This document shows positions 12,480-29,701 of a stretch of 64,000 nucleotides of DNA, piece by piece. The translations under genes and the position numbers were made by a program. The DNA lies in the NCBI RefSeq assembly GCF_016862195.1, contig NZ_BOMM01000036.1, positions 1-64,000 on the forward strand. The letters are read 5' to 3'. Numbering within the stretch: the stretch's first letter is position 1; each line of letters begins with the position of its first letter. The DNA comes from Paractinoplanes ferrugineus (GTDB taxonomy: Bacteria; Actinomycetota; Actinomycetes; Mycobacteriales; Micromonosporaceae). The notes beneath the pieces are model-generated. The model was not told the DNA's origin. It ran no database searches and saw only the letters and a program-made list of their open reading frames with translations.

Positions 12480-12743
12480 TCAGGAGCCCGCGAGGGGCAG
12501 CTCGAGGCGGACGGATCCGCGCAGGTCGAGGAAGACCCGATCGGGTGCGTGCACCATCCGCAGCACGACATCCGAGCAGTGCGGGCAGCGGGCCACCTGC
12601 CCCATGCCGTGACCCCACAGGAGCAGCGTCGCGACGGCATCGGCGTGGCCGCAGCCGGCACAGGTGTACCGGGCGACGGTCACGTCGACCGCGAAGAGCT
12701 CCCGCAGGTCGCCGGCGAGGGCGTTGCCGTCGAGAGGGTTCAT
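12480..12743 (-). CDS. DUF6510-like zinc-ribbon protein
   Basis: 87 aa with two Cys pairs, CAGCGH (about 28-33) and CPHC (about 53-56), which should bind one zinc. The start ATG overlaps the stop of the upstream oxidoreductase (ATGA). This family is commonly found beside the FNR-like and sulfite-oxidase-like genes seen here, suggesting a shared redox process; the molecular role is unknown. Confidence 0.65.
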   Translation of the reverse strand: MNPLDGNALAGDLRELFAVDVTVARYTCAGCGHADAVATLLLWGHGMGQVARCPHCSDVVLRMVHAPDRVFLDLRGSVRLELPLAGS

Positions 12744-13477
12744 GACGTGCCTCCGAAGCGTTCCGTGCGGATCCGCTTGGGGTCATGGCCGAGAGCGACC
12801 AGGATGTCCGCGGCAGTCTCGACGAACGTGGTCGGACCGCAGACGTAGCAGTCCGGGGTGAAGTCGGCGGGCCAACCGTAACTGTTGATCGTGGCCACGT
12901 CGATCCTCTTCGCGGGGGGCGTCCGGGTGTAGACCCACCGAACGTCAAGACCGGGATCATCGCGTACGCGTCGGGCAAGCTCGTCGGCGTAACAGGCGTC
13001 GGCCGGCGTGCGTACCGAATAGATCAGCCGGAACGGCTGTTTGGCCTTCGCCTCCGCACGGGCCCGGATCATCGCCATCAGCGGGACCACGCCCGATCCC
13101 CCGGCGATCAGGAGCACCGGGGCCGGTTGGGTCTCGCGCCAGACGAACCAGCCACCCACCGGGCCGCGCAGCTCGAGTTGTTCGCCCACCTCGATCGTGT
13201 CGGCCAGATAGGGCGAGACCTCACCGTCGGCCACCCGCTGCACCGTCAGCTCGACCGTTTTGGCCGTGGGTGACCAGCCCGACGCGATCGAATAGCTTCG
13301 CTGCGCGCGGTAGCCGTCCGGCGCGGTGAGCCGGACGTCGACATGCTGACCGGGCAGGTGACCCGGCCAGTCGGGCACGTCGAGGATCAGCGTGCGGGCT
13401 GACGGGGTCTCCCACCGTTCGCCGGTTACGGTGGCTTCTCGCCAGGTCAGTCGCCCTGGTAGCGCTGCTCGAGCCAT
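12740..13477 (-). CDS. FAD/NAD(P)-binding oxidoreductase (ferredoxin reductase type)
   Basis: 245 aa from the ATG at 13477, which overlaps the upstream gene by 31 bp; the frame is open beyond it, but no better start fits the fold. FAD-binding RSYSIAS, NAD-binding LLIAGGSGVVPLMA, YVCGPTTFVE and a C-terminal ERFGG define the FNR family. No 2Fe-2S domain. It probably passes electrons between NAD(P)H and the neighbouring molybdoenzyme (inference from coupling). Confidence 0.85.
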   Translation of the reverse strand: MARAALPGRLTWREATVTGERWETPSARTLILDVPDWPGHLPGQHVDVRLTAPDGYRAQRSYSIASGWSPTAKTVELTVQRVADGEVSPYLADTIEVGEQLELRGPVGGWFVWRETQPAPVLLIAGGSGVVPLMAMIRARAEAKAKQPFRLIYSVRTPADACYADELARRVRDDPGLDVRWVYTRTPPAKRIDVATINSYGWPADFTPDCYVCGPTTFVETAADILVALGHDPKRIRTERFGGTS

Positions 13478-14046
13478 GGGTCTCCGTACATGTGGTAGCC
13501 GGCGGCTTCCCAGAAGCCGGGCTCGTCCTCGTTCATCAGGGTCAGGCCGTTGACCCACTTCGCCGACTTCCAGAAGTACAGGTGGGGCACGATCATCCGG
13601 GCCGGCCCGCCGTGCTCCGGTTCGAGATCCTCGCCGTCGAACTTATAGGCGATCCAGGCCTTGGAGTCCAGCAGATCTTCGAGCGGGACGTTCGTCGTGT
13701 AGCCGCCGAAGCTGTGCACCATCGTGTAGTCGGCGGCGGTGTCGACGTCTTCGAGCAGCGTGTCCAGCGAGACGCCACGCCAGGTCGTGCCGAGTTTCGA
13801 CCATTTGGTGACGCAGTGGATGTCGGTGGTGACGTCCTCACTCTTGAGGGCGAGGAATTCCGTCCAGTTCCACTCGGTCTTCTGGCCGGTCTCGGTGGTG
13901 ATGGTGAAGTGCCAGCGGTCGAGCGGGATGCGGGGTGTCGGCCCCGCGCTGAGCACCGGGAAGTCGTGGGTCAGGTATTGACCTGGAGGCAGACCGTCGA
14001 CCGACTCGCGTCGCCGGCCGCCGAAGCCGCGGGAAATGATGGCCAT
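13447..14046 (-). CDS. sulfite-oxidase-like molybdopterin oxidoreductase
   Basis: 199 aa, SUOX-fold core of the MsrP/YedY type. C78 in DIHCVTKWSKLG is the expected Mo ligand; EHGGPARMIVPHLYFWKSAKW is the conserved cofactor-binding stretch (quoted in part: GGPARMIVPHLYF). No twin-arginine signal or dimerisation domain, so it is probably cytoplasmic. First gene of the four-gene operon 14046-10545. Substrate not predictable; relatives reduce oxidised methionine or oxidise sulfite. Confidence 0.85.
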   Translation of the reverse strand: MAIISRGFGGRRRESVDGLPPGQYLTHDFPVLSAGPTPRIPLDRWHFTITTETGQKTEWNWTEFLALKSEDVTTDIHCVTKWSKLGTTWRGVSLDTLLEDVDTAADYTMVHSFGGYTTNVPLEDLLDSKAWIAYKFDGEDLEPEHGGPARMIVPHLYFWKSAKWVNGLTLMNEDEPGFWEAAGYHMYGDPWLEQRYQGD

Positions 14047-14191: not shown

Positions 14192-15067
14192 ATGGGCAAG
14201 CACGCCGCCCCCGGTCGCCGACCCAGCCGGCGCCAGTGGCTCTCGCTCGGCGCGGTCGTCCTCGCGGCGGTCTCCGGCGGCGGAGGGTACGCGGTGAGCA
14301 CCCGCCTCGATGGCGAGAACCTGGTGACCGCCGAGCCGTACGCCTCGATCCCGGCCCAGCCACCGACCGACCGGCCACCGACCGACCAGCCACCGACCGA
14401 CCGGCCACCGCTCCCGCCGGCGCCGGTTCCTTCGGCGCTCTCGCCGGCACCGATGGCCACCCCGGCCAAGAGCGCGGCGCGTTTCTCGGTGAGCCCGTCG
14501 GTGCCGGCCGCGTTGCCCGCCCCGTCGGTGCCGCCGCCCGCGCAGTCACCGGCGCCCGGCGCGAGACCCCGGACGCCGGGGCCCGGCCCGCGGACGGCGG
14601 GGTCCAACTCACCCGCGCGGGGGCCAGGGGGGTCAGGGCCAGCAGGGTCGGGGCCAGTGGGGTCGGGGCCAGTGGGGTCGGGGCCAGTGGGGTCGGGATC
14701 GGCCGGGTCGGGATCGCTCGATCAGCGGGGGCTCGGTGCGGCCGGGGCCGGGATCGAGAAGGTCGGCGTCCGCAGCGAGCACCGGCCCGACGGCTCGCTG
14801 CGGATCATCACCGCCCGGTCGGATCTGACCGGGCAGCGGGAGCTCCGCTGGGCGGCCGACGCCGGCCGCCCGATCGGCGACCTGCGCTGTACCCAGAACC
14901 TGCACTTCAACGACGACGCGCGCCCGTCGAGGCAGCCGAACCTGCTGCTCTGCTGGCGCACGTCGGCCACCCGGAGCGTCGTCACGCTGATGGTCGATCA
15001 TGGCGGCCACCCGTCGGTGGCCGACAGCGCCGGCGTCATCGCCCGGGAGTGGGCCGCGCTCAGCTGA
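14192..15067 (+). CDS. LLCWR-family membrane-anchored protein 1
   Basis: 291 aa. A basic N-terminus and one helix (about 16-36, WLSLGAVVLAAVSGGGGYAV) anchor it with the bulk outside. A long Pro/Thr/Ser linker holds PPTDR/Q repeats (14361-14409) and a GPVGS 15-bp repeat (about 14627-14715). The C-terminal 92 aa is a domain shared with the genes at 17066, 17731 and 18530: SLRIITARSDLTGQ, WAAD.G, Cys in LRCTQN, LLLCWRTS, then SVVT and a final EW. The two invariant Cys could form a disulfide. Not a family I recognise. Its last codons and stop lie in a palindrome shared with the convergent protease gene. Confidence 0.75.
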   Translation: MGKHAAPGRRPSRRQWLSLGAVVLAAVSGGGGYAVSTRLDGENLVTAEPYASIPAQPPTDRPPTDQPPTDRPPLPPAPVPSALSPAPMATPAKSAARFSVSPSVPAALPAPSVPPPAQSPAPGARPRTPGPGPRTAGSNSPARGPGGSGPAGSGPVGSGPVGSGPVGSGSAGSGSLDQRGLGAAGAGIEKVGVRSEHRPDGSLRIITARSDLTGQRELRWAADAGRPIGDLRCTQNLHFNDDARPSRQPNLLLCWRTSATRSVVTLMVDHGGHPSVADSAGVIAREWAALS

Positions 15068-15072
15068 GCGCG
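15055..15072. other. 18-bp perfect palindrome carrying both convergent stop codons
   Basis: cgcgctcagctgagcgcg is perfectly self-complementary. It supplies the TGA of LLCWR gene 1 (15065-15067) and of the protease (15060-15062), so both proteins end Ala-Leu-Ser. A bidirectional terminator role is possible, but there is no loop or T-run. Confidence 0.75.
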
Positions 15073-16910
15073 TAGGTGACCTCCGCGGTGATCTCGGTGC
15101 TCGGAACGATGAGCCGGATCCGGAACGGTCCGTAGGCCCGCTGCTCCTGCGCCACCTGGCCGTCCGGTCCGGTGCGCACCGAGGTGCAGGTGAACGGCTT
15201 GTTCTGGACCGAGACACACAGGTCGACCGGCCGGTTCGGCACCGGGCGGCCCGCCGACAGGACCGTGAACGTCGTGTAGGTGCCGTTGCCGGCGGGCGCC
15301 CACCGCCGCAGCGCGCCGGCATCGATCGTCAGCTTCGGCTCGGGCGTGGCCTCCGGCGTCGGCGTGCTCTCCGGCGTCGGCGTGGCGTCCGGCTTCGAGG
15401 TGGCCTCCGGGGTGGGTGTGGCTTCCGGTGTCGGTGTGGCGTCGGGTGCCGGTGTGGCGTCGGGCGCGGTGGTCGCTTCGGGGGACGGCGTGGGCGGGGT
15501 GGCCGGGGCCGGCGGCGTCACCGCGGCGAGCGCGGCGGTGAGGTCCAGGCGCCCGTAGCCGGAGTCGTCGTCGCGGCCCGGAGTGCCGAGATCCGCTGAC
15601 GAGGATTCGAGGGCCTGTTCCACCTGGGCCGGCGTGAGTGTGCGGTCGACCGAGCGGAGTAGCGCGGCCGCGGCGGCGACGTGCGGTGCCGCCATCGAGG
15701 TGCCGCTCATGCCGGCGTACCGGTTCGCGGGGTAGGTGCTGACGATGCCGTACCCGGGGGCGGCCATGTCCACATAACCGCCCGCCGTCGAGAACGAGGC
15801 CACGCTGTCCGACTGGTCGGTCGCGGCGACCGCGATCACACCCGGCTGCGCTCCCGGGTAACTGGCCGGACTGCCCTTCTGACGCTCGTTCCCGGCGGCG
15901 GCGACGATCACGACCCCGCGGCTGCGGGCGTACTCGATCGCGGTCGTCATCGACTGCTCCGGGGAAGCGCCGCTGATCGACAGGTTGACCACGTCGGCAC
16001 CGTGGTCGGCGGCCCACACCACACCGGCGGCCGCGTCCGACATGTAGCCGGCGCCGTTGTCGTTCAGGACGCGTACCGGAAGGATTTTGACATCCGGCGC
16101 GATGCCGGCGATGCCCAGGCCGTTGCCGGCGGCGGCGGCGATGGTGCCGGCGACGTGCGTGCCATGACCGTGTACGTCGTGCGACGGTCCGACCGTGCCC
16201 TCGGTCAGGTCGGCCCCGGGCAGCACCTGGCCGGCCAGGTCGGGGTGGGTCACGGCGACGCCGCTGTCGAGCACGGCGACCGTGACTCCCGCGCCGGTCG
16301 TGCGGGCCCACGCCGGCGGGGCGTGGATGGCGTCGAGGTCCCACTGATAACCGCGGTACGGGTCGGTGCCGGTCCCCACGGCGGCGACCTTGACCGGGAC
16401 GTCCAGTTCGACGCCGACCGCGCCGGTGGTCCGCTGCGCGCGGCGCACCTGGCTGACCGCGCCGGCCCGGTTGTTCGCGGTGTGCACCGCGATCACCGGG
16501 CGGCCGTCCCTGCCGATCGTGGTGGTGACGATGCGGGCCGGGTGCGCGGCGGAGACCTTGCGCGGCACCAGCGTCTCGGGCGCGACGTCCAGGTTGCGGG
16601 TCGCCCGGCCGGCGGGCTCGCGCTCGATCGCGGGCCGGGTCGCGGCGGCCCGCGCTCCCGCCGGCACCGAGCCGTCCGCAGCCGAGCCATTCGGAGCCCA
16701 GCCATTCGGAGCCGAGCCATTCGGAGCCGAGCCATTCGGAGCCCAGCCATTCGGAGCCCAGCCCGAGGGAAGCGCGGGCCCGCCGATGGCTGTGTCGATG
16801 GCCGCCGGGCCGGTCGGCATGGTGATGCCGTCCGCCAGCATCAGCCCGGCGCCGGCCAGGGCGCCCACCGTCAGAACGGCCGCACCGTAGCGTCGAATTC
16901 GCTTGTCCAT
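15060..16910 (-). CDS. secreted S8 subtilisin-like serine protease
   Basis: 616 aa from the ATG at 16910 (GGGGAGG 6 bp upstream); longer starts exist, but this one gives the signal sequence (RRYGAAVLTVGALAGAGLML). Catalytic triad: D215 in AVLDSGV, H249 in HGHGTHVAGT, S405 in GMSGTSMAAPHVA. Between the signal and protease domain is a 15-bp/5-aa repeat (WAPNG/SAPNG, 51-75) and a probable I9-like propeptide region. After the protease (to about 490) comes a Pro/Glu/Ala/Thr repeat (PDATPTPEATP) and a C-terminal beta domain of about 90 aa with two Cys. No C-terminal membrane helix, and no ESX genes nearby, so not a mycosin. It sits among the LLCWR genes and could process them (inference). Confidence 0.9.
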   Translation of the reverse strand: MDKRIRRYGAAVLTVGALAGAGLMLADGITMPTGPAAIDTAIGGPALPSGWAPNGWAPNGSAPNGSAPNGWAPNGSAADGSVPAGARAAATRPAIEREPAGRATRNLDVAPETLVPRKVSAAHPARIVTTTIGRDGRPVIAVHTANNRAGAVSQVRRAQRTTGAVGVELDVPVKVAAVGTGTDPYRGYQWDLDAIHAPPAWARTTGAGVTVAVLDSGVAVTHPDLAGQVLPGADLTEGTVGPSHDVHGHGTHVAGTIAAAAGNGLGIAGIAPDVKILPVRVLNDNGAGYMSDAAAGVVWAADHGADVVNLSISGASPEQSMTTAIEYARSRGVVIVAAAGNERQKGSPASYPGAQPGVIAVAATDQSDSVASFSTAGGYVDMAAPGYGIVSTYPANRYAGMSGTSMAAPHVAAAAALLRSVDRTLTPAQVEQALESSSADLGTPGRDDDSGYGRLDLTAALAAVTPPAPATPPTPSPEATTAPDATPAPDATPTPEATPTPEATSKPDATPTPESTPTPEATPEPKLTIDAGALRRWAPAGNGTYTTFTVLSAGRPVPNRPVDLCVSVQNKPFTCTSVRTGPDGQVAQEQRAYGPFRIRLIVPSTEITAEVTYALS

Positions 16911-17007
16911 GCCTTGCCTCCCCGTCGAACAGACGCCCGAATATTCGTCCGGACCGGGGCGGCGCTGGTGAGAGCCGCGGTGCGAGGTGAGTGCCAAACG
17001 GGTAGGC

Positions 17008-17027
17008 CGTTTTGCCATCTTTTGTCC
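17008..17027 (+). promoter_or_regulatory. shared upstream element, copy 2 (LLCWR genes 2-3)
   Basis: CGTTTTG-N6-TTTTGTCC, 38 bp before the GTG of LLCWR gene 2 and 98 bp upstream of the divergent protease start, so it could serve both. See copies at 14115 and 18439. Confidence 0.55.
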
Positions 17028-17065
17028 ACTCAGCTGGCACGATTGGCCGGGAGAGGAGGCGGGAC

Positions 17066-17734
17066 GTGAGCAACCGTGACGACGACGAGGGCGTGGTCTA
17101 CCACTCGGCCGTGCAGGAGCAGCGGCGGCGACGGCGCACCCAGGCGATCGTCGGCACGATCGGCCTGGCCGCGATCCTCGGACCCACCGCCTACTTCGTG
17201 ACCGCGCAGATCCTCGACGGCCGCCGGCCCACCGTCACCCAGGACATCGGCGCGCTCGCCCCGATGCCACCGACCGAACAGGCCACCCCGGCCCCGGCCG
17301 CGAGCAGCGGATCACCTTCGACGGCGGTCCGGTCGACGATCGCCGCGGTCCGCCGGTCGACCAGCCCCACCCCGGTGCCGTCGGTCCCGTCCGGGGCCGC
17401 CGACCAGCTGTCGATCCAGGGGGTCGGGGTCACCGAACGGAACTTCACCACCGCCGACGGAACGGTCCGGGTGCAGTCGGCTCGCTTCGACCTGACCGGC
17501 CAGCGGGACCTGGCGATGGCCGGGGACAGCGGGCGCGCGTACGGCACGGCTCGCTGCACGCAGAACATGCGCTTTCCCGACGATCCGAACGTACGCGAAA
17601 TGCCGTCGATGCTCCTGTGCTGGCGGGTGTCGCTGAGCCGCAGCGTGGTCACCATGGCGGTGGCCGCGGCCGGCAAGCCATCGGCCGCGCGCAGCGTCCA
17701 ACTCCTCGAGCAAGAATGGGAGAGGCTCGGATGA
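17066..17734 (+). CDS. LLCWR-family membrane-anchored protein 2
   Basis: 222 aa, GTG start preceded by GAGAGGAGG. A charged N-terminus (RRRRR near 25) and one helix (about 29-51, AIVGTIGLAAILGPTAYFV) precede a Ser/Thr/Pro linker. The C-terminal LLCWR domain runs about 125-222: TVRVQSARFDLTGQ, ARCTQNMRF, MLLCWRVS, SVVTMAV, EWERL. Overlaps gene 3 by ATGA, so the two are an operon. Divergent from the protease. Confidence 0.75.
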   Translation: MSNRDDDEGVVYHSAVQEQRRRRRTQAIVGTIGLAAILGPTAYFVTAQILDGRRPTVTQDIGALAPMPPTEQATPAPAASSGSPSTAVRSTIAAVRRSTSPTPVPSVPSGAADQLSIQGVGVTERNFTTADGTVRVQSARFDLTGQRDLAMAGDSGRAYGTARCTQNMRFPDDPNVREMPSMLLCWRVSLSRSVVTMAVAAAGKPSAARSVQLLEQEWERLG

Positions 17735-18414
17735 GCCGGCCGACTCCGCGCTCCGGCCGGAACCGGCAGATCGCGATCGGCGCGGCCACGGCCCTGGTCG
17801 TGGTGGTCGGCGGGGGTGCCTTCCTGGTCGGCTCCCGCGCCGACGACAGCGCCCCGCGAGACGCCGACGCGATCGGGCCGGCCGCGACTGCGCCCGCCGG
17901 CAACGTGCCGGCTCCGGAGCCGCAGGCGTCGACTCCGCCGGTGTCCGGAACGAGGGCCGGTGCCGCCAGGAGGACACGATCCCCCGAGCCCGCGGTGCGC
18001 ACGGAGGTCGACGCCGCGCGGTCTCGGGCGGCGGCGGCCGGCAACCCGGTTCAGCGCCCGCTCACCCCCTCGGCGCAGCCGAAGATCGCGGCCGCGGCCG
18101 TCGACTCGCTCGTCGAAGAGGAGCGGCCGCTTCCGGGCGGCGGCACCCTGCGGATCAAGTCGGCCCGCTACGACCTCAGCGGCCAGGGCGAGTTGCTCTG
18201 GGCGGCGGATGGCGGGACCCCGGCCGGTGGGGCGCTCTGCACCCAGAACTTCCGCTTCGCGCAGGGCCAGAAGCCTGCCGTACGCGCGAACATGCTGCTG
18301 TGCTGGCGTACCACGGCCGATCGCAGCGTGACTGTGCTGGCCGTGACCCCCGAGGAAGTGCCGAACTCGGCCCAGGTCCTCAACGTCCTCGACACCCAGT
18401 GGGACCGCCTGTAA
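17731..18414 (+). CDS. LLCWR-family membrane-anchored protein 3
   Basis: 227 aa; ATG overlaps the previous stop (ATGA). One N-terminal helix (about 15-35, IGAATALVVVVGGGAFLVG), an Ala/Pro/Arg linker, and the C-terminal domain (about 130-227): TLRIKSARYDLSGQ, LCTQNFRF, MLLCWRTT, SVTVLAV, QWDRL. Same two conserved Cys as its paralogues. Confidence 0.75.
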   Translation: MSRPTPRSGRNRQIAIGAATALVVVVGGGAFLVGSRADDSAPRDADAIGPAATAPAGNVPAPEPQASTPPVSGTRAGAARRTRSPEPAVRTEVDAARSRAAAAGNPVQRPLTPSAQPKIAAAAVDSLVEEERPLPGGGTLRIKSARYDLSGQGELLWAADGGTPAGGALCTQNFRFAQGQKPAVRANMLLCWRTTADRSVTVLAVTPEEVPNSAQVLNVLDTQWDRL

Positions 18415-18438
18415 CTGAGAGCCGGCTGGCTGATTGCT

Positions 18439-18458
18439 GGTTTTGCCGTGCTTTGTCC
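18439..18458 (+). promoter_or_regulatory. shared upstream element, copy 3 (LLCWR gene 4)
   Basis: GGTTTTG-N6-CTTTGTCC, 71 bp before the start of LLCWR gene 4, in an otherwise unremarkable 115-bp gap. The TTTTGCC and TTTGTCC halves form an approximate direct repeat about one helical turn apart. Confidence 0.55.
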
Positions 18459-18529
18459 GATGCGTTGCGACTATGAATGTTCGGAGGCCCGCCCCGGCGG
18501 GCCCAACGCCGAACAAAGGGATAGTCGAC

Positions 18530-19255
18530 ATGACCATCGAAGACGACGGCGTCGATCAACCGAGAGTCAGCCGCCGCCGTAAACAGATCGCCGGCGTGCT
18601 CGGCCTGGCCGCCGTGCTGGGTGGTGGAGCCTATGCGATCACCTCGGAAGCGACCGGGAAATCGTCGACCGCGCAGAATGCCGGCGCCGTCGAGTCCCTC
18701 CCGACCGGCGAGGCCGACTCGGTGACGAGTTCCGCCTCCGCCCCGGCTTCCGCGTCCGCCACCGGGAAACAGGCGGGCCCGATCCTGCCGAAGGTGTCCT
18801 TGACCGACCCGGTGGTCAAGGAGGAAGTCAGCAAGTCGCCCGAGGAGCGGATCAAGGCGGCCCGGGAGGCGGCGGCCAAGGGCGGTGTGTCGGTCAAGCA
18901 CCCGCGCACCGCGACGTCGGTCGGATCGCCGGAGGAGGGCGGCGTCACCGAGCAGAACATCGGGTCGCTCAAGGAGGGCGGCTCGATGCGGATCGTCTCC
19001 GCCCCGTACGACCTGACCGGCCGGCGGGAGATGCTCTGGGCAGCCGACGGCGGCCACCGGGTCGGCACCGCGAAGTGCACGAACAAGCTCCAGTTGAGCA
19101 ACGAGGACGAGCCGACGGCGCGGCCGACGTTGCTGCTCTGCTGGCGTACGTCGGCGAAGAAGAGCGTGATCACCGTGGCGGTGGTGCCGACCGGTCGGCC
19201 GAACGCCGCCAAGAGCGTCGCGGCGCTCGACAAGCAGTGGAACAAGATGCCCTGA
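18530..19255 (+). CDS. LLCWR-family membrane-anchored protein 4
   Basis: 241 aa, ATG with AAAGGG upstream. One N-terminal helix (about 24-42, IAGVLGLAAVLGGGAYAI). The linker is more charged than in the paralogues (VVKEEVSKSPEERIKAAREA, likely helical). C-terminal domain about 145-241: SMRIVSAPYDLTGR, AKCTNKLQL, LLLCWRTS, SVITVAV, QWNKM. Has its own upstream element and a strong terminator behind it, so it is a separate transcription unit. Confidence 0.75.
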   Translation: MTIEDDGVDQPRVSRRRKQIAGVLGLAAVLGGGAYAITSEATGKSSTAQNAGAVESLPTGEADSVTSSASAPASASATGKQAGPILPKVSLTDPVVKEEVSKSPEERIKAAREAAAKGGVSVKHPRTATSVGSPEEGGVTEQNIGSLKEGGSMRIVSAPYDLTGRREMLWAADGGHRVGTAKCTNKLQLSNEDEPTARPTLLLCWRTSAKKSVITVAVVPTGRPNAAKSVAALDKQWNKMP

Positions 19256-19337: not shown

Positions 19338-21590
19338 TCAGAACGAGGAGACCGTGAAGGTGGAGCCGCTGGAGATCATGCTCTGGATGTAGGTGACATC
19401 CGAGCCGTTGGCGCCCACCGCGGTGTTGCTGACGTAGATCAGGTTGTAGGCACCGTCCGGAACCGGCAGGGTCGCCGACAGGACCTGGGTGCTCTCGGTG
19501 GTCGGGCCGCCGCTGGCGTTGGCGCTCAGCACACCAGCGGTTCCGCTGGTGTAGGTGAGCAGCTTCTGGCCACCGACGAGCGAGGTCGCGCTCACCAGGA
19601 AGCGACCCTCGTCGGCCTTGAGCAGGGGCGTGAGGGCGTTGGCCGCGAGGGCGGTGCTCGCCGCGCTGGTCGTGGTGGTGGTGATGGTCCGGACCAGCGG
19701 CGACGAGAACGTGGCGTTGCCCGTCGTGCCGGTGCCGGTGGCGTTGTTCGAGATCAGGACCGTACCGGTGTCGATGTACCGCAGGACGGTCGTGCCGGCC
19801 GGCACGTTGGGGCTGGTGACGGTCGTACCGACGAGAGCGTCGGTGAACCCGGTGGCGGAGTCGACCAGGACCCGGCTGCCGGCGGTGGTGCCGATCGTGC
19901 CGGAGATGGTCGCGGGCGCCACGGCGGCCACGTAGCCGGCGCCGGTGCTGGCCAGACGCTGGGTGAGGTCGAGCGTGCAGATGACCTCGGTGTCGCTGAG
20001 GACAAGCGGGTTACCGCACTCGGCGATCGGCGGGTTGGCGCGGTTGCTGCTCGCGTTCGCCGACGGGTCGTAGGTCCCGCGGGTGAGCACGATGTGCGAA
20101 CCGGTCAGCAGCGTGTTGCCCCAGGAGGCGCTCTGGAAGCCGACGCCGTTGACGACCAGGTCGATCGCCTTGGTGTTGGGCGCGGTGTTCGGGCTGACCT
20201 TGAGCGCCGCGGTGAACGAGAACGCGTTGGACAGCGTGAACGAGCCCGCGTCGGTGGTGAGCACCAGCGCGACGTTGTTGGCCGGCGCGTGCTGCGGCGT
20301 GATCGCCGAGAACGCGGTGGCGCTGATCGGCACGATGTTGGTCAGCGCCGTGCCACCCAGGGTGGCGGTGATCTTGCCGGTCTCGATCGGCAGCGCGGTA
20401 CCGGACACGATGATCTTGCTGCCGCCCAGGGCCGGGCCGGCCTTCGGGCTGATCGCGGTGGCCGACGGCACGGTCGTCAGGGTGTACGGCACGCTGGCGA
20501 TCAGCGCCCCGCCGCTCTGGTTCGCGTAGACGCAGATGTTCCACGTCGTGGCGGAGTTCGGCGCGTTCGTGAAGAGCGCGGGAACGGTGACCGCCAGGCG
20601 CGAGTCGGTCAGCTTGCGAATCTTGCTGGACGCGACCGACTGGCCACCGGTGAGCGTGCTGCCACCGGCCGAGCCGGTGGTGCCCAGGTCCGCGTAGGTA
20701 CCGGCACACGCCGACGACGTGATGTTCACGCCGGGGGTGTCGTTGCCGGCCAGGAACATGTTGGGCGAGGTGATGTTCAGGCCGTTGAGACCGCCGTACG
20801 GGCCGGTGTTCTGGCTGAGGCTGAGCTGGCCGACGTTGTAGGCCGCCTGCGAGATCAGCGCGCTGCTGGTCGCCGTGCCGTTGTAGAGGCAGATGTTGTA
20901 GGCGGTCAGCAGGCCGGTCGTGGAGGAGACACCCGACGGCGTGGTCAGCGTCGCGCTGCCGTCCGTGTTCTTGGTGACGGTCGACGTGGTGCCGGTGGTC
21001 GGCGTCGCGTAGGTCGCCGTGCAGTCCGCGGTGTTGAACACGGCGCCGATGGTGGTGACGCCGGTGAAGACCGGGTAGCTGGCCTGCGGGGTGATGGTGA
21101 CCGAGTCGCCACCACCGGTGATACCGGTGGTCGAGCTCAGCGTCGGCACGTAGCCGACGGTGAGCGTGTAAGCGGTGTTGCTGCCCTGCAGCAGGCTGGT
21201 GGCGGCGGTGCTGCCGTCGTAGGCGCAGACGTACCACTTCTTGACCGTGCCGTTGGTGCCGGCCGTGGCCGGGGGAACGGTGAAGGTCACCGTGGCCGAG
21301 GCGCCGCCGGGCGCGGTGGTCGTGGCGGGCACAGCGGAGGTGCTCGCCGCCACGTACTTCGCGTTACAGCTGGCCGACTGCAGCTCGATCTTGGTCGATG
21401 CCGTGAACGGCGTGGCCGAGGTGACGTCGTCGGTCAGCGTGACCGTGTCGCCCGGGGCCGCCACCGGCTTGCTCAGACTGATCGCGGCGAATGCCGCATT
21501 GGGGGCGACGAGGAGTGCGGCCGTGACCGCTCCCGTGCCCAGCCCGGCGGCTACGGCAAGCCGTGACCGGGCGAACTTGGACTTGCGCAT
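19338..21590 (-). CDS. large secreted TIG/Ig-like repeat protein A
   Basis: 750 aa, ATG with GGAGG upstream. Signal peptide about 1-35 (LAVAAGLGTGAVTAALLVA, then AFA). The N-terminal part holds three repeats of about 100 aa, each with the signature WYVCAYDG / YNICLYNG / WNICVYAN and a second Cys. An IPT/TIG domain starts with ISPKAGPALGGSKIIVSG (about 380-465). The C-terminal third has Ser/Thr/Gly-rich modules with SPNVPAGTTV, reminiscent of phage tail-fibre repeats, and ends STFTVSSF. No LPXTG motif or membrane helix, so release or non-covalent surface attachment is likely. Paralogous to 27287-29701. Role unknown; adhesion or surface layer is a guess. Confidence 0.75.
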   Translation of the reverse strand: MRKSKFARSRLAVAAGLGTGAVTAALLVAPNAAFAAISLSKPVAAPGDTVTLTDDVTSATPFTASTKIELQSASCNAKYVAASTSAVPATTTAPGGASATVTFTVPPATAGTNGTVKKWYVCAYDGSTAATSLLQGSNTAYTLTVGYVPTLSSTTGITGGGDSVTITPQASYPVFTGVTTIGAVFNTADCTATYATPTTGTTSTVTKNTDGSATLTTPSGVSSTTGLLTAYNICLYNGTATSSALISQAAYNVGQLSLSQNTGPYGGLNGLNITSPNMFLAGNDTPGVNITSSACAGTYADLGTTGSAGGSTLTGGQSVASSKIRKLTDSRLAVTVPALFTNAPNSATTWNICVYANQSGGALIASVPYTLTTVPSATAISPKAGPALGGSKIIVSGTALPIETGKITATLGGTALTNIVPISATAFSAITPQHAPANNVALVLTTDAGSFTLSNAFSFTAALKVSPNTAPNTKAIDLVVNGVGFQSASWGNTLLTGSHIVLTRGTYDPSANASSNRANPPIAECGNPLVLSDTEVICTLDLTQRLASTGAGYVAAVAPATISGTIGTTAGSRVLVDSATGFTDALVGTTVTSPNVPAGTTVLRYIDTGTVLISNNATGTGTTGNATFSSPLVRTITTTTTSAASTALAANALTPLLKADEGRFLVSATSLVGGQKLLTYTSGTAGVLSANASGGPTTESTQVLSATLPVPDGAYNLIYVSNTAVGANGSDVTYIQSMISSGSTFTVSSF

Positions 21591-21924
21591 GCGAGGTCCT
21601 CCTACGGGCCCGTTGGGCCACGTCTATGGATGGGTGAGCCCGGACACTCGATGAGCAGTCACGGGCTGTCTCGCCGGAAGCGTAACGATTCGTAGTTGCC
21701 TGATAGCTAAGAGTCATGAATTTCATTAGATGTCGGACAAGTTGTCGGCACTAGCACGGATCGAGCGCGTTGTCAGGCGATCCGCGAAATGCGGTTCCGT
21801 GGAATTGAGGGTCGCCTTACCTAAATTGTAAATAGTCGCGTGAATTGATCGCGTCGAGTTGGGTAAAGAACGGCCATTGGTTTATCGTCGTGTCGTATCC
21901 ACGCGAGACCCGAGGGAGCCCGTC
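21591..21924. other. 334-bp intergenic region, no gene
   Basis: Divergent upstream region of TIG protein A and the DUF1540 gene. It is locally AT-rich (for example 21700-21730 and 21818-21850), as expected for promoters, and holds imperfect repeats of gtcggacaagttgtcgg near 21732. I see no defined operator or RNA. Confidence 0.5.
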
Positions 21925-22218
21925 ATGACGCAGATGATGGAAATGCCGCGCGTTCAGACTTGTACCGTGAGCGCGTGCAGCTACAACCACGACGGTTGTA
22001 CGGCGTACGCGATCACCATCGGCAGCGCGAGCTCGGCCGAGTGCGACACGTTCTACGAAAGCGCTGAGAAGGGCGGCCTCGGCAGGCCGCTGGCGCAGGT
22101 GGGCGCGTGCAAGCGGGCCGAGTGCAAGCACAACGCCGAGCTGGAGTGCAGTGCGCCCGCGATCGTGGTCGGCGAGTCCGGCGACAAGGCCGACTGCCTG
22201 ACCTACGAAAAGAAGTAA
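21925..22218 (+). CDS. DUF1540 domain protein (Cys-rich)
   Basis: 97 aa with two DUF1540-type units: CTVSACSYNHDGCTAYAI (18-35 or so) with a later Cys, and CKRAECKHNAELECSAPAI. The Cys spacing suggests two small metal-binding folds. No signal peptide. Family function is not established. Single-gene unit followed by a textbook terminator. Confidence 0.8.
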   Translation: MTQMMEMPRVQTCTVSACSYNHDGCTAYAITIGSASSAECDTFYESAEKGGLGRPLAQVGACKRAECKHNAELECSAPAIVVGESGDKADCLTYEKK

Positions 22219-27286: not shown

Positions 27287-29701
27287 ATGCCCTCGTTCCG
27301 ACTGCTGGCGGCCGGCGTGGCCGGTGCCGCCGCCGTCCTCGTCGCACCGGCGGCCGCCCTCGCCGCGCCCGTCCTCGGGCCGGTGGTCGTGCCGGTCGGC
27401 GGCACCGCCACCATCACCGACCCGGCCGCCAACTATCCGAGCACGGTCGCGGTGCAGCTGAACACCGTCGCCTGCCCCGCGAAGATCGCCCTGGCCACGA
27501 ACACCGGCCCGTGGATCCCCGCGGTCACCGCCAGGACCAGCACCTCGGTCAGCTTCACGGTGCCGACCGGGCCGGTCACCGGCACGAACGGGGCGGTCAA
27601 GGCGTACAACGCCTGCGTCTACGACACGGCGGCGGGCAACAGCGCCCTGCAGGGCAGCACCACGCTGTACGTGGGTGCGCCGCTCGCGGTCAGCCAGGCG
27701 AGCGGGCCGGCCGGGGGCGGCAACCAGCTCACCGTCACGGCCAGACCCGAGACGCCGGTGTTCACCACCCCGGCAAGCGTGACGGCCACCTTCACGACCG
27801 GCTCGTGCGGGGCGACGTTCGGCACCGCCAACCCGGCCAACCTGGTCGCCACCAACGTCACCAAGCAGTCCGCCACCGCGGTCGGCCTCACCGTGCCACC
27901 GGGGGTGGTCGCGACCGGCGGGGGCGCGCCGACGGCGTACACCATCTGCCTCTACGACGGTTCCGCCGCGACCGCGGCACTGCTCAGCGCGGCGCCGTAC
28001 GGCGCCAACGTGGCGACCGTGAACCCGCCCGCCGGGTCGTACCTGGCCAACAACGCCGTCTCGGTGTCGTCGTCGATGCCGTTCCTGACCGGCGTCCCCG
28101 CGCCCGGCGTGCTGCTCGTCACCGGCGCCGCCTGCCCGCCCGCCTACAGCACGACGGCGACCGGCCCGGCGCCGGTCGCGCTCACCGGAACCGCGGTCCG
28201 CCGGATCACCTCCGGCCGGCTGCTGCTCAACGTGCCGCCGCTGACGCTGACCGGCAACCAGCCGACCCCCTACCAGGTGTGCGTCTATGCGAACAACGCC
28301 GGCGGGGCCCTGGTCGCGTCGGCCACCTACACGGCGGCGCTGACCGCGACCCCCACCGCCGTGACGCCGTCGGCCGGGCCGATGTCCGGGGGCAACACCG
28401 TCACCGTCCTCGGCACCGACTTCCCGACCGAACCCGGCCGGATCACCGCCACGCTGGGCGGGGTGGCGCTGACCAACATCCAGCTGATAAACGACCGGGC
28501 GTTCACCGCGCTCGCCCCGGCACACCCGGCCGAGGACGACGTCACGCTCATCGTGACCACGCCGATGGGCACGCGCACGCTGGTCGGCGCGTACTCGTAC
28601 CTCAATATGATCAAGGCCGCGCCGAACACCGCGCCCAGCAGTGCCGGCAACGTGGACGTGGTCCTGCAGGGCAGCAAGTTCCTGTCGATCCCGTTCGGTG
28701 CCGCCGGCACCGCGGCCCGGATCTTCCTCGTCGACGGTGTCTACAACGGCGCCGACGCCGGGGACGGCAGCCGGGCCAACGGTCCGGTCGCCGAATGCGG
28801 TGACGTGCTGCCGATCACCGACGAGGAACTCGTCTGCACCCTCCAGCTGGGCCGCCGGTTCAACGCGGCCGGCACCGGCTACTTCGACCCGGCGACCTAC
28901 GCGAACAACGTGGACGACGCCAACGTCATCGCCGGAAGCCGCCTGGTCACCTCGGGGGCGGGCCGGTTCAACCGCAACGACACCGGATTGCCGGTCACCT
29001 CGCCGAACCAGCAGCTGAGCCCGGGCCTCACGATCAGCGCCGTGCTCAGCCCCACCCGGGCCCTGCTCTCCAAACCGGCCACCGTCGGCGGCTACCTGCC
29101 CCTGGCCATCGGTGGGCCGCTGCGCGGGTTCGGCAACGCGCTGATCACCACCGCCGGAAGCGCGACGGTGAGCCTCATGCCGGGCTGGACCTTCACCAAG
29201 GCCGACGTCGGTCGCGTCTTCGGCAACACGACCGGGATCGCGAACGGCACCTCGATCCTGTCGATCGGCCCCGGCGGCACCACCGCCACCCTGTCGGCGC
29301 CGGCCACCGCCGGCACCACGTTCACGCTCACCGGCGTCACCGCGACCGACGGCTCCACCGTGATCACCAGCGCCGCGCTGACCGGCAACGAGGCGCCCGC
29401 CATGATCGGCACCAACTCGCTCGGCATCCCGGTGGGCAGCTCGATCATGTCGGTCAACCCGGCCGGCGGCGGCGCCGTGGGCAGCGCCACGATCTCCATG
29501 CCGGCGGTCGGCGGCGGAACGGGCAGCCTCACTCTCAGCCGGCAGAGCAACGCCATGCTCTTCGGCGCCACACCGGTGCCGAACGGCTCCTACCACCTGA
29601 CCGTCGTGAGCAACGGCGCGCCGGACGCCGCTCTCACCGATCCCGACTACTTCCAGACCGACGTGACGAGCAGTTCCACGTTCACGGTCGCGCCGTTCTG
29701 A
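27287..29701 (+). CDS. large secreted TIG/Ig-like repeat protein B
   Basis: 804 aa, ATG with AGGAG upstream; signal peptide about 1-26 (LLAAGVAGAAAVLVA, then ALA). Same plan as protein A (19338-21590): three Cys-containing repeats with YNACVYD / YTICLYDG / YQVCVYAN, a TIG domain starting VTPSAGPMSGGNTVTVLG (about 362-445), the shared segment AECGDVLPITDEELVCTL, Ser/Thr/Gly modules with PSPN/IPVG-like turns, and a matching end STFTVAPF. Transcribed in the opposite direction from A, about 6 kb away. Probably exported and surface-associated; function unknown. Confidence 0.75.
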   Translation: MPSFRLLAAGVAGAAAVLVAPAAALAAPVLGPVVVPVGGTATITDPAANYPSTVAVQLNTVACPAKIALATNTGPWIPAVTARTSTSVSFTVPTGPVTGTNGAVKAYNACVYDTAAGNSALQGSTTLYVGAPLAVSQASGPAGGGNQLTVTARPETPVFTTPASVTATFTTGSCGATFGTANPANLVATNVTKQSATAVGLTVPPGVVATGGGAPTAYTICLYDGSAATAALLSAAPYGANVATVNPPAGSYLANNAVSVSSSMPFLTGVPAPGVLLVTGAACPPAYSTTATGPAPVALTGTAVRRITSGRLLLNVPPLTLTGNQPTPYQVCVYANNAGGALVASATYTAALTATPTAVTPSAGPMSGGNTVTVLGTDFPTEPGRITATLGGVALTNIQLINDRAFTALAPAHPAEDDVTLIVTTPMGTRTLVGAYSYLNMIKAAPNTAPSSAGNVDVVLQGSKFLSIPFGAAGTAARIFLVDGVYNGADAGDGSRANGPVAECGDVLPITDEELVCTLQLGRRFNAAGTGYFDPATYANNVDDANVIAGSRLVTSGAGRFNRNDTGLPVTSPNQQLSPGLTISAVLSPTRALLSKPATVGGYLPLAIGGPLRGFGNALITTAGSATVSLMPGWTFTKADVGRVFGNTTGIANGTSILSIGPGGTTATLSAPATAGTTFTLTGVTATDGSTVITSAALTGNEAPAMIGTNSLGIPVGSSIMSVNPAGGGAVGSATISMPAVGGGTGSLTLSRQSNAMLFGATPVPNGSYHLTVVSNGAPDAALTDPDYFQTDVTSSSTFTVAPF

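Follow-up and report, generated by a model that had tools for sequence, protein, structure and literature searches.

LLCWR membrane proteins of Actinoplanes and their tail-to-tail encoded secreted partners: a candidate surface-tethering system

The spacer of lipase foldases (Lif) is variable and rich in Ala and Pro, and mycosins, the S8 proteases of type VII secretion, carry a C-terminal membrane helix. Two reports describe LipH as a cognate foldase anchored in the membrane, and Lif as a steric chaperone bound to it (PMC13381987, PMC7046727). Tsi3 binds a cognate secreted protein, and MOG1P and PsbP are given by the authors of its report as its fold neighbours (PMC3792639). The locus described here lies in a stretch of 64,000 nucleotides from Paractinoplanes ferrugineus (the window; contig NZ_BOMM01000036.1 of a 9.4 Mb assembly, GCF_016862195.1, 71% guanine plus cytosine). 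Four of its genes encode proteins with an N-terminal membrane anchor, a linker and a common C-terminal domain, called LLCWR after its motif. Judged from gene order among relatives, an LLCWR gene and a convergent gene for a secreted protein (a TIG protein or an S8 subtilase) were shown to be paired as a genetic unit, and the sequence comparisons suggest that each domain acts extracellularly on its own partner, either retaining it or helping it to fold. The genes concerned are listed below by window position.

14192-15067, forward strand: LLCWR protein 1, 291 amino acids; anchor, 161-residue linker, end domain at about 14780-15064
15060-16910, reverse strand: secreted S8 subtilase, 616 amino acids; Pro/Thr-rich linker, immunoglobulin-like (Ig-like) C-terminal tail, Asp/His/Ser motifs
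17066-17734, forward strand: LLCWR protein 2, 222 amino acids; GTG start, domain at about 17438-17731
17731-18414, forward strand: LLCWR protein 3, 227 amino acids; start codon overlapping the gene 2 stop, domain at about 18121-18411
18530-19255, forward strand: LLCWR protein 4, 241 amino acids; domain at about 18959-19252
19338-21590, reverse strand: secreted TIG protein, 750 amino acids; signal peptide, C-terminal stretch ending STFTVSSF
27287-29701, forward strand: second TIG protein of the same family, 804 amino acids; ends STFTVAPF, without an adjoining LLCWR gene

Convergent partners of the LLCWR genes

The S8 gene lies tail to tail with LLCWR gene 1 (8-base overlap at the 3' ends) and head to head with gene 2, in agreement with the initial annotation, which had it convergent with gene 1 and divergent from genes 2 and 3. 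The TIG gene beside gene 4, a feature absent from that annotation, is convergent with it, and 82 bases separate the two stops. No terminators were found in the two convergent gaps, and the region as a whole gave 1 site vs. 1.9 expected.

The domain data set comprised 148 rows, representing 145 open reading frames at 73 loci (three rows were spurious second rows). Genes were called with a home-made caller that missed 6 of the 145 frames, leaving 72 of the 73 loci with a called domain gene; 9 of the 72 fetched loci were shorter than 19.9 kb because of contig ends. Downstream of the 139 called domain genes, the next gene was a convergent TIG gene in 69 cases and a convergent S8 gene in 42, the remainder being a same-strand domain gene (18), another gene (9) or a contig end (1). 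Where the next gene was not itself a domain gene, it was convergent in 115/120 cases vs. 284/847 for other genes of the same loci; these neighbour cases share ancestry and hence are not independent.

The domain was present in 70 of 300 genomes searched from the family and in 6 of 44 genera (Actinoplanes and five others). The carriers were 60 of the 67 same-genus genomes (own genome included, 'same genus' being Actinoplanes in the wide sense) and ten genomes of other genera; the relatives identified by name were Actinoplanes, Paractinoplanes and Winogradskya species and one actinobacterial metagenome-assembled genome. The ten genomes of other genera have one domain gene apiece, of which nine face a convergent TIG gene, and at the tenth locus (L065) a TIG gene precedes the domain gene in the same orientation. 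TIG genes stood at the locus in 58/60 same-genus and 10/10 other-genus domain genomes. Locus-type S8 genes were found in 48/60 and 0/10, respectively, a count that excludes five S8 genes of >700 amino acids, all from one other genus, which scored 32-41 bits against the query; one of the 12 same-genus loci without S8 (G149) is cut by a contig end. The protease neighbour reported in the initial annotation thus recurs at most loci of the genus (those 48 genomes) and at none of those in other genera.

Across the 300 genomes, the profile of the TIG C-terminal end matched 74, namely 69 of the 70 domain-bearing genomes and 5 of the 230 without the domain. The seven same-genus genomes without the domain also lack the TIG family, and in two of the seven (G192 and G111) the usual flanking genes are separated by just a few kilobases, in which the domain, TIG and S8 searches gave no match. 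A nearly full-length S8 homologue (49-52% identity) was found in 4 of those seven genomes and in G028 of another genus, and the S8 tail gave no match in 6 same-genus domain-bearing genomes and a weak match in two. The TIG protein is therefore the near-obligate companion and core of the system, and the S8 association is looser; the view that the protease is its heart was not supported, as S8 is patchy at the loci and occurs in 5 domain-less genomes, with TIG taking its place in 69/70.

The TIG query P0006 scored 35 bits on PF01833 of Pfam (cut-off 20.9). At the end of the 69 convergent TIG proteins, V-P-x-G-x-Y and STFTV(A/S) are nearly fixed, with the Y, T and V in all, and members near LLCWR genes end (S/T)FTV(A/S)x(Y/F). 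A loose form of the end pattern fitted 66/69 convergent TIG genes and 32/48 other TIG genes; since non-convergent genes often have it, the motif marks the TIG family and not the pairing. Matches to the end profile reached 9 in some same-genus genomes, which together with the solitary gene at 27287-29701 indicates that the TIG family has expanded beyond LLCWR partners. AlphaFold modelling of the TIG C-terminus was unusable (mean predicted local distance difference test, pLDDT, 52.4; predicted template modelling score, pTM, 0.41), and comparison of the domain profile with the TIG end profile gave 0.9% probability. The S8 query P0005 matched Peptidase S8 (PF00082) with an E-value of 9.5e-60 and 202.8 bits (cut-off 21.8), and the motifs DSGV, HGHGTH and GTSMAAPH were read in it. 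S8 partners end with one or two Ig-like domains, unlike the TIG ends. Locus-type S8 proteases often occur in tandem. The N-terminal part of the window S8 protein (16600-16770, reverse strand) holds short repeats of the WAPNGSAPNG type, likely a prodomain or linker.

Co-divergence was measured as the partial correlation of distances, conditioned on NUDIX distances to account for divergence between species, with 999 permutations; loci lacking a NUDIX gene contributed no pairs, so that 47/69 TIG pairs and 36/42 S8 pairs were retained. The domain co-diverged with its own TIG end (partial r = 0.33, n = 46, and 0.37, n = 34) and with its own S8 (0.61, n = 36), with 0/999 permutations as high in each case. 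Mismatched partners at the same loci gave 0.08 (44/999) and 0.09 (58/999), and TIG-paired domain genes against the head-to-head S8 gave 0.08 (121/999). Beyond this neighbour-gene control, domain divergence tracks the domain's own tail-to-tail partner, and hardly a partner of the other type encoded nearby at that locus.

A domain tree was built with FastTree (139 rows, 101 columns; 43 of 136 inner branches unresolved). Partner type was clustered on it, with 13 changes for TIG vs. 43.8 when shuffled and 8 for S8 vs. 38.2. Parsimony required at least 7 TIG/S8 changes among TIG- and S8-labelled rows, a number of partner switches that is rough because the tree is weakly resolved. Window gene 2 grouped weakly (support 80) with S8-paired genes, though its run ends at the TIG gene. 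At some loci (L090, L099, L106 and others) another type of secreted-looking protein (cluster C28), missed by the TIG label, stands beside the LLCWR genes, and the LLCWR genes paired with it form their own branch on the domain tree.

Two reverse-strand genes beyond gene 1, for a molybdopterin oxidoreductase (13447-14046) and an FAD/NAD reductase (12740-13378), flank the cassette at many loci and remain when it is absent. On the other side, a gene for a Cys-rich DUF1540 protein (21859-22218, forward strand) flanks it at 51/73 loci.

The LLCWR domain, its anchor and its predicted fold

The four window domains (about 95 residues) aligned over 99 columns with a mean column identity of 63%. Their 23 invariant columns include both Cys, D-L, LLCWR, S-V and the final W. 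Query P0004 alone recovered the other three members (3.5e-29, 1.4e-23 and 9.2e-22), too strongly for a four-member family to be due to chance, and its search of the whole assembly gave no match outside the window family. In the 148 domain rows, both Cys columns were 100% Cys where filled, the D, L, CWR, S, V, P and final W each exceeded 90%, and the domain end (aligned or extrapolated) reached the stop in 140. The initial annotation had described a homologous four-member family with anchor, linker and end domain, two invariant Cys, an LLCWR motif and a final W, with selection on the domain while the linkers differ and with no named family; the alignment and searches bore this description out.

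No credible match to the domain was found in Pfam (four proteins and 68 members), NCBIfam (four proteins) or PDB sequences (two domain profiles, best E-value 0.16). P0001-P0004 matched 0 Pfam families at E ≤ 1, hence no Lif family. Weak NCBIfam matches to GltJ (0.0059 and 0.064), which lay in the low-complexity linker, were discarded. A class-wide draw of 394 genomes (own included) likewise gave no credible domain match, two partial matches (23.9 and 24.9 bits) being judged shadow frames by eye. Literature within reach of the search, from which most subscription papers fall out, held nothing on this locus or domain, and the accessible parts of PMC10733313, PMC6599336, PMC11205660 and PMC7682106 had no bearing on either. 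The LLCWR family is real, lineage-specific and uncharacterised in that literature.

All four window proteins have a hydrophobic N-terminal segment after basic residues, followed by an Ala/Pro/Ser/Thr-rich linker. A hydrophobic 19-mer (Kyte-Doolittle ≥ 1.6) lay N-terminal to the domain in 136/148 rows, and the 15 residues preceding it were net positive in 135 of those 136. By the positive-inside rule the domain should lie outside the membrane, and this predicted outward topology was shown consistently by the family. Spacer length had a median of 101 residues (quartiles 94-107, range 53-161) over the domain rows, with 161, 81, 100 and 107 residues in window genes 1-4. The same composition recurs among members with varying sequence, and a spacer role fits because length is kept while sequence changes.

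AlphaFold modelling of the gene 4 domain (20-row input) gave a confident alpha/beta model (mean pLDDT 90.3, pTM 0.83), which opens with two strands and a short helix, continues with a series of strands and closes with a helix bearing the invariant Trp. Both Cys sit in modelled strands at 49-52 and 69-75, from which we infer a probable disulfide between them. Foldseek returned nothing at E ≤ 0.001 with this model (best 0.18). VIA-align gave matches of Z ≤ 6.1 to Tsi3, RseB, SciW, PknH, Apa, TiME, DcrB and PsbP, mostly of Mog1p/PsbP type; all fell below Z 8, a range that may reflect merely a common arrangement. The domain model may thus weakly resemble Mog1p/PsbP-like folds. The top matches included the immunity protein Tsi3 (Z 6.1, 85 residues, 3.3 Å), whose cognate binding may serve as a lead only for the LLCWR domain.

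Readings of the pairing

We tentatively favour a reading, with a probability of about 0.42, in which a membrane-tethered ectodomain would bind its cognate secreted partner outside the membrane and act as its tether. The LLCWR protein would be a type II membrane protein, its basic N-terminus inside, with a single transmembrane helix and, outside, a flexible spacer (about 100 residues) leading to a disulfide-capable alpha/beta domain. This domain would bind the secreted protein encoded tail to tail, a TIG surface protein or, often in Actinoplanes, an S8 protease, and would most likely keep it within the cell wall or at its surface, the spacer supplying reach. By eye, the partners appeared to have no readable anchor of their own, and no sortase-type signal was seen by eye in TIG proteins near LLCWR genes. 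A tether is preferred because of this apparent lack of an anchor and because spacer length is kept. It is conceivable, though unlikely, that the system represents an undescribed Gram-positive mode of display, in which a lineage-specific tethered receptor on a length-limited spacer through the wall would capture a co-inherited secreted partner, the partner slot being switchable from TIG to protease while the tail-to-tail unit is kept.

Several observations weigh against a tether. In five of the 120 cases the next gene is oriented like the domain gene. A single binding mode for TIG and S8 partners is not evident because they share no end motif. For S8-paired domain genes, co-divergence extended to the head-to-head S8 (partial r = 0.86, n = 8, 1/999), and all head-to-head S8 genes pooled gave 0.45 (n = 30, 0/999). 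Co-divergence and clustering would also be expected if tail-to-tail genes merely moved as cassettes. The five TIG-positive domain-less genomes all belong to one genus, and one genome (G260) has the domain without the TIG family. Compared with mycobacterial sets, the domain profile gave a probability of 0.5% with PknH_C (PF14032; 26 columns, comparison profile of just 10 rows) and 0.7% with Lpp-LpqN (PF10738; 30 columns, just 4 rows).

A dedicated foldase accounts for the pairing equally well. Here a membrane-anchored domain would fold or chaperone its own partner at the exit of the Sec channel and then release it, like Lif/LipH. The ground plan is the same (anchor, variable Ala/Pro-rich spacer, ectodomain, gene beside the client), the co-divergence is partner-specific, and chaperones are among the weak fold matches (SciW, Z 5.2; EagT6, Z 4.7). 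We nevertheless consider a foldase doubtful: Pfam gave no match at all, Lif has an extended helical fold unlike the one predicted here, and work at the membrane needs no narrow spacer length of about 100 residues.

Genomic pairing only, in which the genes of a convergent cassette come, go and multiply together and the products need not touch, appears improbable. Linkage alone could produce co-divergence, and at two of the four domain-less loci fetched (L147, L149) the SUOX/FNR and DUF1540/NUDIX flanks were found together without the cassette, the other two being uninformative (L148 had no SUOX/FNR in the stretch and L150 was cut by a contig end). However, the equally close head-to-head S8 of TIG-paired domain genes did not co-diverge, and in other genera single domain genes at apparently different places keep their convergent TIG gene in 9/10.

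It is very unlikely that the domain is a protective inhibitor, shielding the producer from its own S8 protease in an immunity-like manner with TIG pairing as a side line. Such a role would suit the rank of Tsi3 among the fold matches and the strong co-divergence with convergent S8, but most convergent partners are TIG proteins, non-enzymes by sequence, other genera have no locus-type S8 nearby, and full-length S8 homologues occur in 5 domain-less genomes. Neither an inhibitor nor a protease-substrate role explains the TIG pairing or the protease-less loci. Least probable of all is the processing proposed in the initial annotation, by which the S8 protease cuts LLCWR linkers and releases or activates the domains, for although S8 adjoins in most Actinoplanes loci and flexible linkers could be cut, the family persists without S8 at 10/10 other-genus and 12/60 same-genus loci and keeps linker length, not linker sequence.

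Actinoplanes and its relatives have elaborate hyphal and sporangial surfaces, on which the retention of secreted proteins is little described in searchable literature. The family is compact and its domain confidently modelled; with a clear cognate partner, mismatched pairs as built-in controls and some 70 sequenced natural variants, a mechanism of display or folding is directly testable. It is unusual for a gene pair to stay convergent at the frequency seen here and for its partner type to have apparently changed more than once, and the case illustrates how candidate interaction partners can be read from the order of genes.

Comparison with known systems

Lif/LipH share with the LLCWR proteins a membrane anchor, a variable spacer, an ectodomain and a gene adjoining a secreted client. 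They differ in that there is no sequence match and the predicted fold is another, that the LLCWR clients are TIG proteins and S8 proteases, and that LLCWR and partner genes are convergent, the Lif gene order being co-directional.

The Mog1p/PsbP-like domains (DcrB, PsbP, Eag chaperones, Tsi3, the PknH extracellular domain and mycobacterial Apa/TiME) weakly resembled the domain model with Z 4-6.1 over about 70-95 residues, and several of them are extracytoplasmic protein-binding domains; the LLCWR domain is the shorter one, with a Cys pair and an LLCWR motif of its own.

The S8 partner resembles the mycosins, P0005 scoring 258.8 bits on TIGR03921 (NCBIfam). It was rejected as a mycosin, as this score is below the equivalog cut-off of 278.75 and the C-terminus is, by eye, an Ig-like tail and not a membrane helix; no type VII secretion gene was recognised by eye among the called window neighbours. 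The TIG partner is like the IPT/TIG surface proteins in that P0006 is above the PF01833 cut-off, and differs from them in its own conserved C-terminal stretch.

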